From positions 1-41,719 of the forward strand of contig JAIXOJ010000126.1 in the NCBI GenBank assembly GCA_027486835.1: DNA of 41,719 bases, written 5' to 3'. A program made the position numbers and the translations under genes. Each line of letters starts with the position of its first letter. The first letter of the stretch is position 1. Shown here in pieces: positions 9,357 to 35,518 of the stretch. The notes beneath the pieces were generated by a model. The model saw only the letters and a list, made by a program, of their open reading frames with translations. It had not been told where the DNA came from and did no database searches. The stretch comes from Chitinophagaceae bacterium (GTDB taxonomy: Bacteria; Bacteroidota; Bacteroidia; Chitinophagales; Chitinophagaceae).

Positions 9357-11804
9357 ATGAAACAACTCTTTTTTATTCTAGCATTATGTCACCTCTTTTC
9401 TGCAAATGCACAGCAAATAGAAATTAGGGGAAACATTAAAGATGCGGTTACTAAACAACCATTAGGTTATTGTACAATTACCCTTGATGGACATCGTTTT
9501 ATTGCAAATGATAAGGGGTATTTTTCTCTAAATATCGCTAAGAAGCAAGCAAAGAAAATAGTGATACAAGCTATAGGGTATCAAACAGACTCGGTTTTAA
9601 TAAGCAATTTCCAGTTTCCTGCTTCTATATACTTACAACCCGCCGTCATTGAACTGAATGATGTGGTAGTAACAGGTGTGACTAAGGCAACTTTAATAAG
9701 AGAAAATCCTGTTGCCATCAACCATGTTAGTGCTAAAACAATTGATAGAACCATCGCCCCAAATGTGATAGATGGCTTGGCCTGTCATGTTGCGGGCTTG
9801 CAAGTGGTGAAAACTGGCCCCAATATTTCTAAACCCTTTATTCGTGGCTTAGGGTATAATCGGGTGTTGACACTCTATGATGGACTTAGACAAGAGGGAC
9901 AACAATGGGGAGATGAACACGGCATTGAAGTGGATGCCTACAACATTGAAAATGCAGAAGTGATAAAAGGGCCAGCTAGCCTACAATTTGGTTCAGATGC
10001 AGTGGCTGGGGTAGTAAGTCTTTTTCCTACTTTGCCAAAGATGCAAGATGGTAAGATTCATGGCCGATGGTTAAGTGAATACCAAACTAACAATGGATTA
10101 ATAGGAAACGGATTTAGATTAGGTTGCCATAATGGGCATTGGTTTTGGACGGCTAATGGAGGATTTCGTTTGGCAAAAAACTACCGCAATGCAGTGGACG
10201 GTTGGGTATATAACACCAATTTTCGTGAAACCAACGTAGGTGCTACTTTAGGCTATAAATTTAAAAGAGGGACATCATCTTTGAATGTGACTTTATATAA
10301 TAATCTACAAGGAATCCCTGACGGCAGCCGAGATTCTGCTACTAGACAATTTACTTATCAGCGGGAGGAAGGACTACTTGATACCATCAACAAACGGCCT
10401 ATTGTGCCCTACCAATCGTTAAACACTTACCACCTTAGCCCGCTGCATCAACACATCCAACATTCTCGTATTTACTGGAAGCATCGCTGTGATTGGGGCA
10501 AAAGTGGGTTGGATGCGATGGTGGGTTGGCAGCAAAACACAAGGAGAGAATATAGCCATCCAACTGCACCCAAACAAGCAGCCTTATATGTACGTTTAAA
10601 TACAGTTAATTACCATTTGGCCTACCATTTTGCAACGGGCAATCAACTTGAATGGGCTACTGGCATCAATGGTATGTACCAGGATAATAAAAGCTTGCAT
10701 GCAACTGATTTTCCTATCCCTGATTTTCAATTGTTAGACGTAGGTGGGTATGTGTTTGGGAAATGGTCAAAGGATGCATTGACCGTTAGCGGTGGCATTC
10801 GCTTGGATACAAGAAAACTTTGGGGTTCCGATTTTTATGTACGAGAAAATGCTGCAACAGGATTTTCACAACAGGCTCATTGGCCAGACACTACAGGGGC
10901 AGTCTTACAGTTCCCTGCGTTAAAGCGATTGTTTCAGGGTATTTCTACTAGTATTGGCCTTACATATAGGTTCAATAATTATTTTAGCATAAAGGCGAAC
11001 TTGGCTAGGGGATATAGAAGCCCAAGCATCACCGAATTGGCAGCAAATGGGTTGGATCCTGGGGCACACATTGTCTATTTGGGCAATCGATCTTTCGAGC
11101 CAGAATTTAGTTGGCAACAAGATGTGGGATTTATTTGGCAGCACCCATCCATAGATGCAAGCATTGGCTTGTTTAACAATACGATTCAACACTATATTTA
11201 TCTTACGCAATTAGTAGATGCGGATGGGAATGCCCTTTCTGATGCGCAAGGCAATAAGACCTACCAATACCAGCAAGACAAAGCCCAGCTATATGGTGGC
11301 GAAGCAACCTTAGCAATACACCCTGAAAGTTGGAGCGGGCTGGAGATTAGACAACAAGTTTCGTTAGTCAATGGTAAAAACAAAAAATCAATCTACCAAT
11401 GGAAGGGCAATGGTGGAGAAAACTTGCCCCTGATGCCGCCGCTTAAATGGGTATCTAGTGTAGGAAAAGAAATAAAACTGAAAAACAAACATTGGAATGC
11501 CTGCCATGGAGGTATTGAAATGGAGTATTCAGCACCTCAAAATCGCTATTTAGCACTTAACAATACAGAAACAGCTATGTCATCTTATACCCTTTTTCAT
11601 GTGTCTGGAGGAATCAAATACCAATTAAAAAATGGTCAGTCCATTCAATTGGAGGCTCAAGTAAACAATATGTTTGATGCTGTTTATCAAAGCAACCTAA
11701 GCAGACTTAAATATTTTGAATACTATAGCAGCTCTCCAAATGGCAGACTGGGTATCTACAACATGGGAAGGAATGTTTCTGGAAGAATAATCGTTAGTTT
11801 TTGA
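9357..11804 (+). CDS. TonB-dependent outer membrane receptor (metal or small-molecule type)
   Basis: 815 residues. Signal peptide: KQLFFILALCHLFSANA. A carboxypeptidase-regulatory-like domain follows (about 20-100; IEIRGNIKDAVTKQPLGY), then a plug (about 115-230) with ISKPFIRGLGYNRVLTLYDG and GQQWGDEHGIEVDAYNIENA, followed by VIKGPASLQFGSDAVAGVV. The 22-strand barrel region ends in the terminal phenylalanine of GRIIVSF. The GQQWGDEHG-IEVD plug signature recalls TonB receptors assigned to metal (zinc or copper) uptake, an assignment made from memory of the family. No uptake operon partner is next to it. The barrel is rich in histidine and tyrosine, which is compatible with metal handling but not proof. 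Confidence 0.88.
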   Translation: MKQLFFILALCHLFSANAQQIEIRGNIKDAVTKQPLGYCTITLDGHRFIANDKGYFSLNIAKKQAKKIVIQAIGYQTDSVLISNFQFPASIYLQPAVIELNDVVVTGVTKATLIRENPVAINHVSAKTIDRTIAPNVIDGLACHVAGLQVVKTGPNISKPFIRGLGYNRVLTLYDGLRQEGQQWGDEHGIEVDAYNIENAEVIKGPASLQFGSDAVAGVVSLFPTLPKMQDGKIHGRWLSEYQTNNGLIGNGFRLGCHNGHWFWTANGGFRLAKNYRNAVDGWVYNTNFRETNVGATLGYKFKRGTSSLNVTLYNNLQGIPDGSRDSATRQFTYQREEGLLDTINKRPIVPYQSLNTYHLSPLHQHIQHSRIYWKHRCDWGKSGLDAMVGWQQNTRREYSHPTAPKQAALYVRLNTVNYHLAYHFATGNQLEWATGINGMYQDNKSLHATDFPIPDFQLLDVGGYVFGKWSKDALTVSGGIRLDTRKLWGSDFYVRENAATGFSQQAHWPDTTGAVLQFPALKRLFQGISTSIGLTYRFNNYFSIKANLARGYRSPSITELAANGLDPGAHIVYLGNRSFEPEFSWQQDVGFIWQHPSIDASIGLFNNTIQHYIYLTQLVDADGNALSDAQGNKTYQYQQDKAQLYGGEATLAIHPESWSGLEIRQQVSLVNGKNKKSIYQWKGNGGENLPLMPPLKWVSSVGKEIKLKNKHWNACHGGIEMEYSAPQNRYLALNNTETAMSSYTLFHVSGGIKYQLKNGQSIQLEAQVNNMFDAVYQSNLSRLKYFEYYSSSPNGRLGIYNMGRNVSGRIIVSF

Positions 11805-30662: not shown

Positions 30663-31685
30663 TTACTCCCCTTCTATATGATACAAATCGTGCAATAATT
30701 TGGATTTGCGTTTAAACAGCCGCACCATATTAGATGGTGATAGGATTTTCAACCCCTCACCAAAGCCGAGTAGTTCGCGATCTAGTTCAAAATTGGGGAT
30801 GACGTCTATAGAAAAAACAATTCCGTTTTTCTGCTCTTCCACCACTTGTTGGGATGGATGGATGGGCTTGGTTCTTATGTAGGGGGCTTGTATATGGTTG
30901 GCAAAGAAGACAATATGCGTAGGTGTTTCTGCAAAATTGCGCGTTACGCCTACTATATCTTTGAAATAAGTGTGTGGGTTAAAGTCTTTGTTAATGCGAT
31001 ATACTTCACTAGGTAGTGGTTCAATTTCTTGTATCCTATCTAATGCAAGCGTTCAAATAATTTTATCCATTTTTTTCATTCCTAATAGAAACCATCTGTT
31101 GCGGTATTCTTTTAAGAGGTATGGGTATATAATGATCTGTTCTGCAGACCTTGCTTTGAAGGATTGATAAGTGATCTGCACCGTAGTTTGACTAATAATC
31201 AGCTTATACAACTTGTCAAGCCACTGAATTCCTTTGAGTAGTTCGTTTTTTTCAAAATCAATTACCGAAGGTTGATGGTGCTGTTCGCTATAAATCTTGT
31301 CTTCTAGCTTGTTCACCATTTCCGTCATGTCGTTAAAATGGCTGAATCCTTTGAATTGTTGCAATAAGTGGGCTACTTCCTGCAATATGCTAAGATCCTG
31401 TGTGGTGAGGGGACTGTTCGCAATTGAATAGTCTGCATCTTCATAGCTATAATATTTTTTGTCAGTAACAATGATGGGTGCAGAATAACCAAGCTTGTCG
31501 CTACGCATGGCTTGTAAATCCATACGGATGGTGCGTAGGCTAATGGGTTTGTTGATGCCTTCGTATTCATACAAAGCATCAGCACAAGCATCCATCAAGC
31601 TTTCAATCGTCCATTTTTTTCGACGGTTTTGCAGGCATTTGTCAATAGTGCGGTAGCGTATTAGGGCATTACGGTTAACGGGCAT
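30663..31685 (-). pseudogene. WYL-domain transcriptional regulator interrupted by one in-frame TGA
   Basis: The N-terminal 210 codons (31685-31056) hold a winged HTH and most of a WYL domain (LLKEYRNRWFLLGMKKMDKII). TGA follows at 31055-31053, then the same frame stays open to 30663: TLALDRIQEIEPLPSEVYRI, NPHTYFKDIVGVTRNF and the WYL C-terminal part NFELDRELLGFGEGLKILSP. There is no frame change, so a single base substitution explains the break. Restoring CGA (Arg) gives I-R-T-L-A-L-D-R-I, the normal family sequence. The combined length of about 340 residues is normal for this family. It is divergent from rsr, so it is the likely regulator of the Ro/Y RNA locus. Real nonsense mutation, read-through and sequencing error cannot be separated here. 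Confidence 0.88.
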
Positions 31686-33404: not shown

Positions 33405-33428
33405 GGCGCAACCATCATGTGTACTAAT

Positions 33429-33457
33429 AGCAGCCTTGCAGGGGCAAGGCTGCTTAT
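33429..33457 (+). terminator. Hairpin after rsr (terminator or processing stem)
   Basis: AGCAGCCTTGC pairs with GCAAGGCTGCT (11 bp, AGGGG-type loop region), 25 bp after the rsr stop. What follows is TATTTAAA and not a clean T-run, so partial read-through into the RNA array 14 bp further on is plausible. Confidence 0.7.
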
Positions 33458-33470
33458 TTAAACTAATTTG

Positions 33471-33619
33471 AAAATAGTAAGGATGTCGTTAGGATTGGGA
33501 TACATCGTCTCCTAAACGAGGGCTAGTGTTCCAAAGCAATTTGGAAAGAGGTGCAAATCCTCTGCTTGAAGGCCGCCCAATTACCCATTCCCAATCCGCC
33601 TGTTACTCCTGAAATTTTT
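33471..33619 (+). ncRNA. Y-RNA-like gene 1 of 6
   Basis: Outer pairing AAAAT/ATTTT and AGGA (33480-33483) with TCCT (33607-33610). Conserved loop 5' TGTCGTTA (33484-33491), 3' GCCTGTTAC (33598-33606). Helix 2 GGATTGGGA (33492-33500) with TCCCAATCC (33589-33597), 9 bp perfect. The insert differs from the others: a 4-bp stem with a 7-base CTCCTAA loop (33505-33519), a 7-bp hairpin with a GCAA tetraloop (33529-33546) and a T-arm-like hairpin AGAGG/CCTCT with a TGCAAAT loop (33547-33563). The acceptor mimic is vestigial (GCTTGAAGGC) and no D-arm is seen. It shares the scaffold, so it is probably a diverged Y RNA. Confidence 0.72.
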
Positions 33620-33622
33620 ACT

Positions 33623-33729
33623 GAAAGGTGTCGTACAAAAGGGATACTTCGGTGGCTAGTTGGTTCGAATCCAAAACCGCCAGTGGCGGTTAGACTCCCT
33701 TTTGGCTTCATTACCCTTTCTTTATTTTA
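33623..33729 (+). ncRNA. Y-RNA-like gene 2 of 6 (no D-arm)
   Basis: Helix 1 GAAAGG (33623-33628) with CCTTTC (33715-33720). Loop 5' TGTCGTA, 3' GCTTCATTAC. Helix 2 CAAAAGGGA (33636-33644) with TCCCTTTTG (33696-33704), 9 bp perfect. Then the conserved TACTTCG. The T-arm is TTGG-TTCGAAT-CCAA (33660-33674), followed at once by an acceptor-like hairpin AACCGCC/GGCGGTT with an AGT loop (33675-33691). Only AGAC separates that from helix 2, so the D-arm of the tRNA mimic is missing. A T-rich tail follows. Confidence 0.82.
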
Positions 33730-33883
33730 TGTGGAGGTGCCGTAGGACAGCGTTACTTCGGTTAAAGCACTTGCAAACCTGCAAGAGTCGCAGGTTCAAG
33801 TCCTGCTTACCCAAGCTTTTGATTGAGGTAATGGCTATGTTAATACAGTCGCTGTTCGCCCTATTGCCTCCCATTACTTTTTT
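33729..33883 (+). ncRNA. Y-RNA-like gene 3 of 6 (degenerate tRNA mimic plus extra hairpin)
   Basis: Helix 1 ATG-T-GGAGG (33729-33737) with CCTCC-CAT, one bulged base. Loop 5' TGCCGTA (33738-33744), 3' GCCCTATTGC. Helix 2 GGACAGCG (33745-33752) with CGCTGTTC (33850-33857), 8 bp perfect. Extra hairpin CTTGC/GCAAG (33770-33785). T-arm GCAGG-TTCAAGT-CCTGC (33790-33806), the best T-arm in the array apart from copies 5 and 6. Acceptor hairpin TTACC-CAA with TTG-A-GGTAA (33807-33831). D-arm-like GGCT/AGTC (33833-33850) without the usual GG in its loop. Ends in six T. Confidence 0.8.
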
Positions 33884-33884
33884 G

Positions 33885-33967
33885 TAAACTAGTGTGCCGT
33901 AGTGTAGTGTTACTTCGATTCTGTCACAATCCCAAACGTCACTATGCGTTTGTTGCCACGGGTTTAT
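33885..33967 (+). ncRNA. Y-RNA-like gene 4 of 6 (minimal, no tRNA mimic)
   Basis: About 83 nt. Helix 1 TAAACTAGTG (33885-33894) with CACGGGTTTA (33957-33966), one mismatch. Loop 5' TGCCGTA (33895-33901), 3' GTTTGTTGC (33948-33956). Helix 2 GTGTAGTG (33902-33909) with CACTATGC (33940-33947), 8 bp. Then TTACTTCG and a 30-base apical loop with no T-arm or D-arm. It is the only copy reduced to the Ro-binding scaffold. A competing local hairpin CAAACG/CGTTTG is possible. Confidence 0.75.
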
Positions 33968-33973
33968 GAATAT

Positions 33974-34119
33974 ACCAACAGGTGCCGTAGAAAATGGATA
34001 CTTCTAATTCCGACATTAGGTCGCTGGTTCAAATCCAGCCCTGCTGCAAAGGCAGTAGGTAGCTCAGCCCGGTAGAGCTAATGAAAAAGCACCTTTTTCG
34101 ATATTGCCCTGTTGGTTTT
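33974..34119 (+). ncRNA. Y-RNA-like gene 5 of 6 (YrlA-type, full permuted tRNA mimic)
   Basis: Helix 1 ACCAACAGG (33974-33982) with CCTGTTGGT (34108-34116), 9 bp perfect. Loop 5' TGCCGTA, 3' GATATTGC. Helix 2 GAAAATGG (33990-33997) with CCTTTTTC (34092-34099), one mismatch. Insert in permuted tRNA order: T-arm GCTGG-TTCAAAT-CCAGC (34023-34039), acceptor CCTGCTGC/GCAGTAGG, 8 bp closed by AAAG (34040-34059), then TA and D-arm GCTC-AGCCCGGTA-GAGC (34062-34078). This is the architecture of bacterial Y RNAs of the YrlA type, whose effector module mimics tRNA with the acceptor ends joined. There is no anticodon arm. Confidence 0.9.
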
Positions 34120-34142
34120 ATTATTTCTTTGGTTAAGAAAAC

Positions 34143-34285
34143 AAAGTTCCGAGTGCCGTAAATGAAAGTTACTTCGACTCTTAATCTGCAGGTAGTGGGT
34201 TCGATTCCCACTGGTACTAGTAATGGTACTATAGCTCACTGGTAGAGCTGCATGTTCTTTCATTGCTTGTTGCCTTGGGATTTTT
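34143..34285 (+). ncRNA. Y-RNA-like gene 6 of 6 (YrlA-type, full permuted tRNA mimic)
   Basis: Helix 1 AAAGTTCCGAG (34143-34153) with CTTGGGATTTT (34274-34284), 11 bp including G-U. Loop 5' TGCCGTA (34154-34160), 3' GCTTGTTGC (34265-34273). Helix 2 AATGAAAG (34161-34168) with CTTTCATT (34257-34264), perfect. Insert: T-arm GTGGG-TTCGATT-CCCAC (34195-34211), acceptor TGGTACTA twice (34212-34219 and 34224-34231), which pairs with itself around a GTAA (GNRA) tetraloop, then TA and D-arm GCTC-ACTGGTA-GAGC (34234-34248). Ends in a T-run, so helix 1 plus the T-run could also terminate transcription. Confidence 0.9.
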
Positions 34286-34435
34286 ATTGAATTACTGGAT
34301 AAAGCTTAGTTGCTTCTTTTCAATTGATGAGCAAGCAATAAGATTAAGTGGTTGTAGATTATACTGGTTTTCAAATCGCGAATCGGGAGATTTGCGGATA
34401 GGTTTGACTTAGTCTGGAGATTAAGCGGGGTACAA

Positions 34436-35215: not shown

Positions 35216-35518
35216 CTATTTTATGATTTCCTCTAGCTTGGACGGATCTTGGCGTCCATCCCAAACTGACAAAATATTGATTGAATTTTCCGTAAGCTCA
35301 TAAATCAATAGATAGTCTTTAACAATCTTAATTCTTATTGAAGCAACATCTGTTGCCCTTCCAATGTAAGGATGTTCTCTGAGTAGCTGAATAGCTTCTT
35401 TGAAAAGTTGATTCAACTTTCGACTATAACGGTTGGATTGATTGCGTTCCGACCAATACGCTAAAATTTCTTTTTTATCTTTTTGTGCACCTAAAGACCA
35501 AATTACTCGCTTAGCCAT
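35216..35518 (-). CDS. RelE/ParE-family toxin
   Basis: 100 residues with the family pattern: an N-terminal VIWSLGAQKDKKEILAYWSERN helix pair, HPYIGRATDVASIRIKIVKDYLLIYELTENSINILSVWDGRQDP strands, in the ParE/RelE order. ParE members poison gyrase and RelE members cut mRNA at the ribosome; which applies is unclear. Its start overlaps the end of the antitoxin gene by 16 bp, the normal antitoxin-first order, so the pair is one transcript. Confidence 0.9.
   Translation of the reverse strand: MAKRVIWSLGAQKDKKEILAYWSERNQSNRYSRKLNQLFKEAIQLLREHPYIGRATDVASIRIKIVKDYLLIYELTENSINILSVWDGRQDPSKLEEIIK

Follow-up and report, generated by a model that had tools for sequence, protein, structure and literature searches.

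The stretch of DNA analysed here (the window) comprises 41,719 nucleotides (nt) of contig JAIXOJ010000126.1 from a Chitinophagaceae bacterium, whose genome (assembly GCA_027486835.1; 6.4 Mb in 219 contigs) yielded a single match to rsr, the gene of a Ro60-type protein. Behind this gene and on its strand, six units stand head to tail at 33480-34284, and all six combine the same base-paired foot with one of five types of head (Table 1). The product of rsr has the TROVE domain that marks Ro60 and Rsr proteins (Pfam, 99.1 bits; cut-off 23), and its vWA_Ro60 domain scores 26.8 bits, 0.9 bit below the cut-off of 27.7. A profile of the Rsr proteins of 16 relatives matches the PDB entries 9l5y, 9kop, 1yvp (Ro60), 9nen (Ro60) and 2nvo (Rsr), and the alignment spans nearly all of 9kop and the C-terminal half of 1yvp and 2nvo.

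The units are 68-143 nt long and are separated by spacers of 12-26 nt. They were delimited with a descriptor of the foot that consists of an outer helix, TGYCGT(T)A, a 5' arm of 8-9 nt, WYACTTY, a partner of 8-9 nt, RC (the R pairing with the Y) and the closing strand of the outer helix. In its relaxed form, the descriptor finds exactly these six units on the two strands of the window, and it finds none in 500 dinucleotide shuffles of 33405-34300. The initial annotation of this DNA had likewise described six tandem units on the rsr strand; its sizes of 83-155 nt and spacers of 4-26 nt differ from ours because the outer helix was cut at a different place. The second helices that it quoted are also present, and each 5' arm of helix 2 finds its best partner in its own unit, with 8/8 pairs in units 1, 2, 3, 4 and 6 and 7/8 in unit 5. 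The core of unit 1 is TGTCGTTA with ATACATC, including one mismatch. It should be noted that the arm of unit 1 also finds partners with 8 pairs, 5 of which are Watson-Crick, in units 5 and 6, and therefore the six units alone, from which strong covariation had been claimed, are modest proof of it; the claim was borne out by the wider comparison described below.

Table 1. Features of the window and 23S-headed units of related loci (L numbers). R1, covariance model; A3 and A4, alignments.
Feature	Position	Strand	Basis
rsr, Ro60-type TROVE and vWA protein, 508 amino acids	31878..33404	+	Pfam, profile-versus-PDB matches
11-base-pair (bp) hairpin, then T-rich stretch, between rsr and array	33429..33454	+	sequence reading, folding
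Y unit 1, class A head	33480..33610	+	foot descriptor, head reading
Y unit 2, class M head: tRNA T arm, then closed acceptor-like hairpin	33623..33720	+	descriptor; R1 51.4 bits
Y unit 3, class B head at 33760-33849	33733..33871	+	alignment A3, pair counts
Y unit 4, class S: foot and 23-nt loop, without tRNA part	33892..33959	+	descriptor; R1 52.7 bits (a self-match, as unit 4 belongs to the R1 training set)
Y unit 5, class D head: YrlA-type permuted tRNA, very probably opened in the anticodon loop	33974..34116	+	Rfam YrlA 41.8 bits, R1 40.4 bits
Y unit 6, class D head starting with Lys(CTT)-like anticodon-loop heptamer	34143..34284	+	Rfam YrlA 37.5 bits; A4 pair counts
WYL-domain regulator gene, divergent from rsr, frame interrupted near 31053	30678..31685	-	Pfam WYL 28.1 bits
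23S-headed (H69-H71) Y unit	L117:9522-9749		
23S-headed (H69-H71) Y unit	L116:8603-8834		
23S-headed (H69-H71) Y unit	L101:8004-8232		
23S-headed (H69-H71) Y unit	L139:8542-8773		
23S-headed (H69-H71) Y unit	L144:8665-8893		
23S-headed (H69-H71) Y unit	L160:8012-8237		

Covariation of the foot across relatives

The relatives comprised 111 regions downstream of rsr (482,159 bases), 31 from genomes of the family and 80 from named loci; the latter are the best 80 of at least 579 confirmed loci, so that the census covers nearest relatives only. Removal of six duplicates (L093, L094, L095, L097, L100 and L122) left 105 non-redundant loci. The descriptor found 434 units in the 111 regions, none in 200-block-shuffled copies and none on the opposite strand; in the non-redundant set, 412 units were found in 99 of the 105 loci. 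The number of units per locus was 0 in 6 loci, 1 in 8, 2 in 10, 3 in 19, 4 in 24, 5 in 16, 6 in 8, 7 in 9 and 8 in 5. Six units had initially been thought unusually many for an rsr locus, a view that cannot be upheld, since at least six are present at 22 of the 105 loci, even by a descriptor that undercounts (L064 shows eight cores, seven of them with a correctly spaced ACTTC, and four were counted).

The descriptor itself demands pairing, and therefore covariation was tested independently of it. When 262 five-prime cores were picked from the 105 loci by sequence alone, an 8/8 partner for helix 2 was found for 154 of them, compared with a mean of 33.7 (maximum 48) in 20 rounds in which the arms were swapped between loci. 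In 175 cases the partner had at least seven Watson-Crick pairs (swapped mean 27.75, maximum 40), and in 56 cases it was paired exclusively by Watson-Crick pairs (swapped mean 2.5, maximum 5). The asymmetric loop TGYCG/TTRC, which had been recognized in the initial annotation, contains a further covarying pair: in 151 units selected by core and helix 2 only, TGCCG occurs with TTGC in 60 cases and with TTAC in 3, while TGTCG occurs with TTAC in 49 and with TTGC in 9; the remaining 30 units have another letter or lack TTNC at the loop position. Thus, the covariation on which the initial annotation had made its proposal depend is found in homologous loci. The foot consists of an outer helix with a bulged T, the covarying Y-R loop pair, a helix 2 of 8 bp and the ACTTC motif.

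Y RNAs are recognized by a stem of the 5' and 3' ends with a conserved internal loop and by their proximity to rsr. The stem and loop are those just described, and unit 1 begins 75 nt past the rsr stop codon. The six units are therefore very probably bacterial Y RNAs, as the initial annotation had supposed from their position behind a Ro60-type gene.

A covariance model (R1) built from 22 headless units (class S, below) was run on the window and on 46 of the 110 relative loci, which include loci of the training rows. It gave 169 matches at E ≤0.1 in the 46 loci (training rows included), all of them on the rsr strand by eye. With filters off, the best matches in the window were units 4, 2 and part of 5; a match at 10492-10574 on the opposite strand (14.1 bits, E 0.03) was taken as chance. 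R1 is no substitute for the descriptor on long-headed units.

Heads with the order of permuted tRNAs

The tRNA-like nature of the heads had not been part of the initial annotation. The 412 units were assigned to class D (155), S (86), A (51), M (34), B (12) and R (6), leaving 68 unassigned (41 termed t, 27 termed x). Class D heads, to which units 5 and 6 belong, have the order T arm, closed acceptor, D arm, whereas the class B head of unit 3 runs from the 3' half of the D arm through anticodon arm, T arm and acceptor to the 5' half of the D arm. Class M (unit 2) has a T arm and a closed hairpin, and class A (unit 1) has a hairpin followed by a T-arm-like hairpin GAGGTGCAAATCCTC; in unit 1 itself these are TTCCAAA/TTTGGAA and AGAGGTGCAAATCCTCT. 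The class A alignment (A5) comprises 12 of the 51 units and mixes at least two subtypes. Class S (unit 4) has a loop of about 20 nt in place of a head. A class x head that lacks tRNA arms, is about 71-80 nt long and contains CTGAATAACAGTAAGGA or near variants recurs in loci titled Chryseobacterium (L104, L111, L116, L117, L135, L139, L140, L142, L144, L148, L151 and L160).

The helices of the two most tRNA-like classes covary. In an alignment of 21 of the 155 class D units, 96.1% of the cells are paired, with the five helices at 89.9-100%; 26 of 33 pairs are altered on both sides, including 6/6 in the acceptor-like helix, and the covariation score is 0.647 (0.209 shuffled, at most 0.175 slid). 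For class B, 7 of the 12 units were aligned, and 20 of 36 pairs are altered on both sides, including all five acceptor pairs (score 0.475, versus 0.254 shuffled and at most 0.164 slid).

In circularly permuted tRNA genes, the parts of the tRNA stand in permuted order. Here, the permuted form would lie inside a Y RNA, and resealing into a tRNA is not expected. Circular permutation nevertheless predicts that a head should read as a tRNA when it is circularized and not when it is linear. Heads of 40-130 nt (154 of the 155 in class D) were circularized in a script and searched on the sense strand with ARAGORN at its default threshold and at the lowered threshold ps80. By default, a tRNA was called in 80/154 circularized class D heads, 2/12 class B heads and 7/40 unassigned t heads, and in none of their linear, shuffled (for class D, mean of five) or reversed counterparts; none was called in circularized A, M or x heads. 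No default call on a linear head was obtained, and thus the heads do not qualify as tRNAs in linear order. At ps80, the circular calls rose to 145/154 in class D (2 linear, 6.8 shuffled, 5 reversed), 9/12 in class B (0, 0.4 and 1) and 33/40 in t (0, 2 and 2), and were 9/28 in class M (0, 0 and 0), 4/25 in x (0, 0.2 and 0) and 17/51 in class A (8, 0.6 and 1). Every circular call in classes B, D, M, t and x spans the joint, compared with just 10 of the 17 in class A. In the window, circularized unit 5 was called Leu(aag) and unit 6 Lys(ctt) by default, and a short-form ps80 call on unit 2 was not counted. RF00005 (tRNA) has no match at gathering score in the window, the best reaching 27.2 of 29 bits.

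The order of units 5 and 6 is that of YrlA, a known permuted-tRNA Y RNA, and the Rfam YrlA model (RF02553) matches both (unit 5, E 1.4e-7; unit 6, E 2.4e-6). In these two units, a permuted tRNA topology opened in the anticodon loop is very probable, and a permuted topology opened in the D loop is likely for unit 3, though with less assurance. The first bases of class D heads fit a loose anticodon-loop pattern, chosen post hoc, in 41 of 155 cases versus 4.35 after shuffling of the first 16 bases. The anticodon-like triplets vary (CAT, ATT, GTT, ACG, TTT, TCC, CCA and others), and this variety suggests that different tRNAs were captured. A comparison of the array with Escherichia coli genomes by blastn gave, among the matches listed, only 23-nt matches to tRNAs (E about 3), which were rejected.

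Largely conserved order of heads in close relatives

The heads tend to follow the order A-M-B-S-D in a set of 12 close loci that includes the window and in which rsr is 64-73% identical to the window's own. Of the 57 ordered pairs that the assigned classes form, 51 agree with this order and 6 do not, and none of 10,000 within-locus shuffles reached 51. The class strings are AMBSDD in the window, ABSDD in L065, ABSD in L068, BSD in L066 and L069, tSDD in L064, SD in L067 and AxttD in L062; L061 (BDMSt), L063 (DBD), L092 (BABSD) and L096 (DB) depart from the order. As the idea arose post hoc from some of these related loci, the result is support rather than an independent test.

23S rRNA heads, tRNA arrays and viral relatives

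The array region contains 23S rRNA sequence in 10 of the 80 named loci (L101, L104, L116, L117, L139, L142, L144, L153, L160 and L162), nine of which are titled Chryseobacterium, while L101 is a metagenome-assembled genome of another name. In seven of them, parsing placed the 23S sequence in the head of a unit, which is of class R in L101, L116, L117, L139, L144 and L160 and of class x in L153. In L116, 32/32 bases are identical to positions 1912-1943 of a 23S rRNA that is annotated with 2,906 nt in one E. coli genome; the usual numbering is presumably about 2 lower, and we take the matched region to be helices H69-H71. The unit of L117 matches 23S rRNA in E. coli genomes by blastn, and Rfam gave no large-subunit rRNA match for it. 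In an alignment of six sequences (A6), the start of the head folds like H69, the 5' strand of the hairpin being supplied by the ACTTCG motif of the foot. A search of the heads against E. coli 23S rRNA at E 0.05 yielded 22 rows, of which 7 correspond to the H69-H71 units; the remaining 15 (E 0.002 or weaker, including one from unit 6 of the window) were taken as chance, because shuffled heads gave 8 rows (best 5.6e-4). Against 16S and 5S rRNA, a single 20-nt row (unit 5 of the window, E 4e-4; none with shuffled heads) was likewise taken as chance. A 24-base 23S pattern had no match in the window's own assembly.

Genes for tRNAs lie beside the Y units in a number of loci. In 6 of the 31 family regions, ARAGORN called at least five tRNAs on the rsr strand, located between the units or downstream of them (in L065, one such call falls inside a unit), and the tRNA genes of the family regions mostly score 41-71 bits with Rfam. 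Among the 80 named loci, 17 have at least three ARAGORN tRNAs within 5 kb, all but one on the rsr strand. These arrays adjoin or interleave with the Y RNAs in L064-L069, L092, L093, L106, L114, L119, L136, L142, L158 and others. The recurrent tRNAs are those for His, Asn, Asp, Gln, Lys, Glu, Phe, Trp, Pro, Arg(acg) and Met; the calls listed for the 17 named loci include none for Ala.

Among 80 viral (IMG/VR) stretches with rsr, some of them nearly identical, 20 have at least one unit and 14 have at least seven tRNAs. The units lie upstream of rsr in 19 of the 20, as they do in loci L106 and L119. Five stretches (L178, L179, L191, L230 and L250) combine rsr with many Y-type units (8 in L178) or with 14-24 ARAGORN calls. 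A phage collection contained a relative of Rsr in 95 of 50,697 records.

Relation to known Ro systems

The kind of RNA found here, the bacterial Y RNA, is known; the range of different heads on one foot appears to be new. The closest likeness is to YrlA (RF02553) of Salmonella and other bacteria, which has a Ro-binding stem and the same head order as units 5 and 6. The array differs from it in having five head types, and the unit 1 module, the unit 2 minihelix and the D-loop-opened head of unit 3 gave no YrlA match. YrlA is reported to be a substrate of DusA and TruB and to bind PNPase through its tRNA-like part (PMC8394870), and Rsr is reported to bind the lower stem of Y RNA (PMC8394870, PMC4726728). 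In RYPER of Deinococcus radiodurans, which consists of Rsr, Y RNA and PNPase, an Rsr-type protein is likewise encoded next to a Y RNA, and by analogy gate and tether roles would be expected here (PMC8394870, PMC4726728), although six units stand in the array of the window. The rsr-yrlBA-rtcBA RNA repair operon of Salmonella also has more than one Y RNA per rsr, according to PMC7790460, but the window has a divergent WYL gene upstream in place of RtcR.

The literature surveyed, which consisted of titles and abstract openings and left key Y RNA studies outside its scope, contained no description of D-loop-opened heads, 23S heads or arrays this large, and in the literature collection searched no paper paired "permuted tRNA" with "Y RNA". 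Sera of patients with anti-Ro60 antibodies are reported to pull down Bacteroides thetaiotaomicron Ro60 ribonucleoproteins (RNPs) with Y RNAs, and lupus autoimmunity has been connected with the Ro60 RNPs of a commensal Bacteroides (PMC11277228), which gives the RNA composition of these particles a wider interest.

Interpretation and alternatives

We consider it probable that the array provides six Y RNAs for the neighbouring Rsr, which would result in mixed Ro particles built on one foot with different heads; that the heads also differ in function has about an even chance. A single transcript would be cut into the six units, a polycistronic precursor (as had already been proposed) being plausible in view of the 12-26 nt spacers. 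Rsr would bind each foot, and the headless unit 4 would merely gate the RNA-binding surface of the protein. The tRNA-like elbows of other units might dock proteins that recognize tRNA elbows or structured RNA, with PNPase, as in RYPER, and tRNA-modifying enzymes, as for YrlA, as candidate partners by analogy. In this way, a single protein could give rise to a variety of Ro particles that differ in their partners. The initial annotation had spoken of a family of adapters for one Ro protein; the anatomy, with a common foot, differing heads and a single rsr match in the genome, agrees with this, and the adapter function is what we infer.

The six Y RNAs might instead all do one job, for reasons of dosage or redundancy, and the differences between heads might reflect drift or repeated accidental capture of tRNAs. 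In more distant loci the head classes indeed vary, and the differing anticodon-like triplets of class D suggest repeated replacement; the largely conserved class and order among the 12 close loci and the class B and D helices that stay paired through both-sided changes make a single job unlikely. Somewhat less likely still is that the heads are decoys or inhibitors of tRNA-cutting nucleases, with Rsr merely stabilizing them, an idea that has been raised for YrlA (PMC7790460) and that would fit both the anticodon-loop-like beginnings of some class D heads, loose and post hoc as that pattern is, and the tRNA arrays that 17 of the 80 named loci have beside rsr. But permutation opens the very loop, so that no closed-loop anticodon would be on display, 114 of the 155 class D heads fall outside the pattern, and class S units have no tRNA part.

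The short spacers and the common strand could also indicate that the units are not separate RNAs but a 3' untranslated structure of the rsr mRNA that serves protection or punctuation. TTTT stands close 3' of the outer helix in 140 of the 412 units (34%) versus 12.7% at random places within units, which would fit this proposal but could equally mark the ends of separate RNAs. We regard it as very improbable, given the terminator-like hairpin between rsr and the array and the units upstream of rsr in L106, L119 and nearly all unit-bearing viral stretches. Hardly any weight is given to a decayed tRNA cluster with chance helices: T and D arms do occur in several units, and the sole ARAGORN call on the window is a tRNA-Arg at 33730-33814, but this call was rejected as it crosses the foot of unit 3, and the foot covaries and is absent from shuffled sequences and from the other strand.

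Several observations weigh against the preferred reading of one foot with different heads for one Rsr. Of the six units of the window, R1 with default filters recovered just three (2, 4 and 5). Units 5 and 6 stay below the gathering score of 69 of RF02553, at which the model had no match in the window or in the 16 relatives scanned (Rfam was run on 16 of the 31 family regions and on 6 of the 80 named loci). Moreover, the YrlA model gives 36.6 bits at the junction of two ordinary tandem tRNA genes (L136, 3129-3195), and a YrlA match alone was therefore rejected as proof. Circularized unit 3 was called a tRNA only at ps80, circularized units 1 and 4 were not called by ARAGORN, and 74 of the 154 circularized class D heads had no call by default, 9 having none at ps80. 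The D stem, because of which class B is described as opened in the D loop, shows both-sided change at only 1 of 4 pairs. The head classes were defined after inspection of the heads, the pair counts come from rows chosen by the descriptor with structures predicted on the same alignments, and the class order was assessed in the very loci from which the idea had come.

With rather less confidence, and at slightly below even chances, we propose that Ro adapters in Bacteroidota arise by serial capture of structural RNAs. tRNAs would have been taken up in permuted form with different openings (anticodon loop, D loop or the junction of acceptor and T arm), the probable source being the junctions of tandem tRNA genes in the arrays beside rsr; a tandem tRNA pair already has the permuted order, which would offer a simple route of origin. 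The 23S H69-H71 piece would have been taken likewise, mostly in Chryseobacterium. Each locus would then retain an ordered set of mimics, through which one Ro protein could meet different RNA-handling enzymes. The array would be a model of the gain of RNA domains, namely of the capture of tRNAs in permuted form, and it hints that Ro proteins and tRNA arrays are connected. The differently cut tRNA mimics, the headless form and the rRNA piece of the relatives, all on one foot, would also constitute a natural mutant series for head function beyond the tethering of PNPase.

Neighbouring genes and distribution of the locus

The hairpin between rsr and the array, absent from the initial annotation, may be terminator-like or a processing hairpin; visual inspection showed comparable hairpins downstream of rsr in L064 and L067. 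The frame of the WYL gene is interrupted: by tblastn, residues 39-374 of a relative's protein are matched in a single frame, yet the open reading frame (ORF) stops at 31053. A WYL match is present in 41 of the 111 records, some loci being represented twice, and in 39 of the 41 it is divergent and lies at most 1.5 kb upstream of rsr. The rsr locus is patchy in distribution, being present in 31 of 394 genomes of the family, the window's own included, and in none of 12 other genomes of the window's genus. Elsewhere in the window, a gene for a ParE-type toxin lies at 35216-35518 on the minus strand (Pfam, 48.1 bits), and according to the ORF list a short tandem repeat at 164-560 has a long ORF open on both strands.

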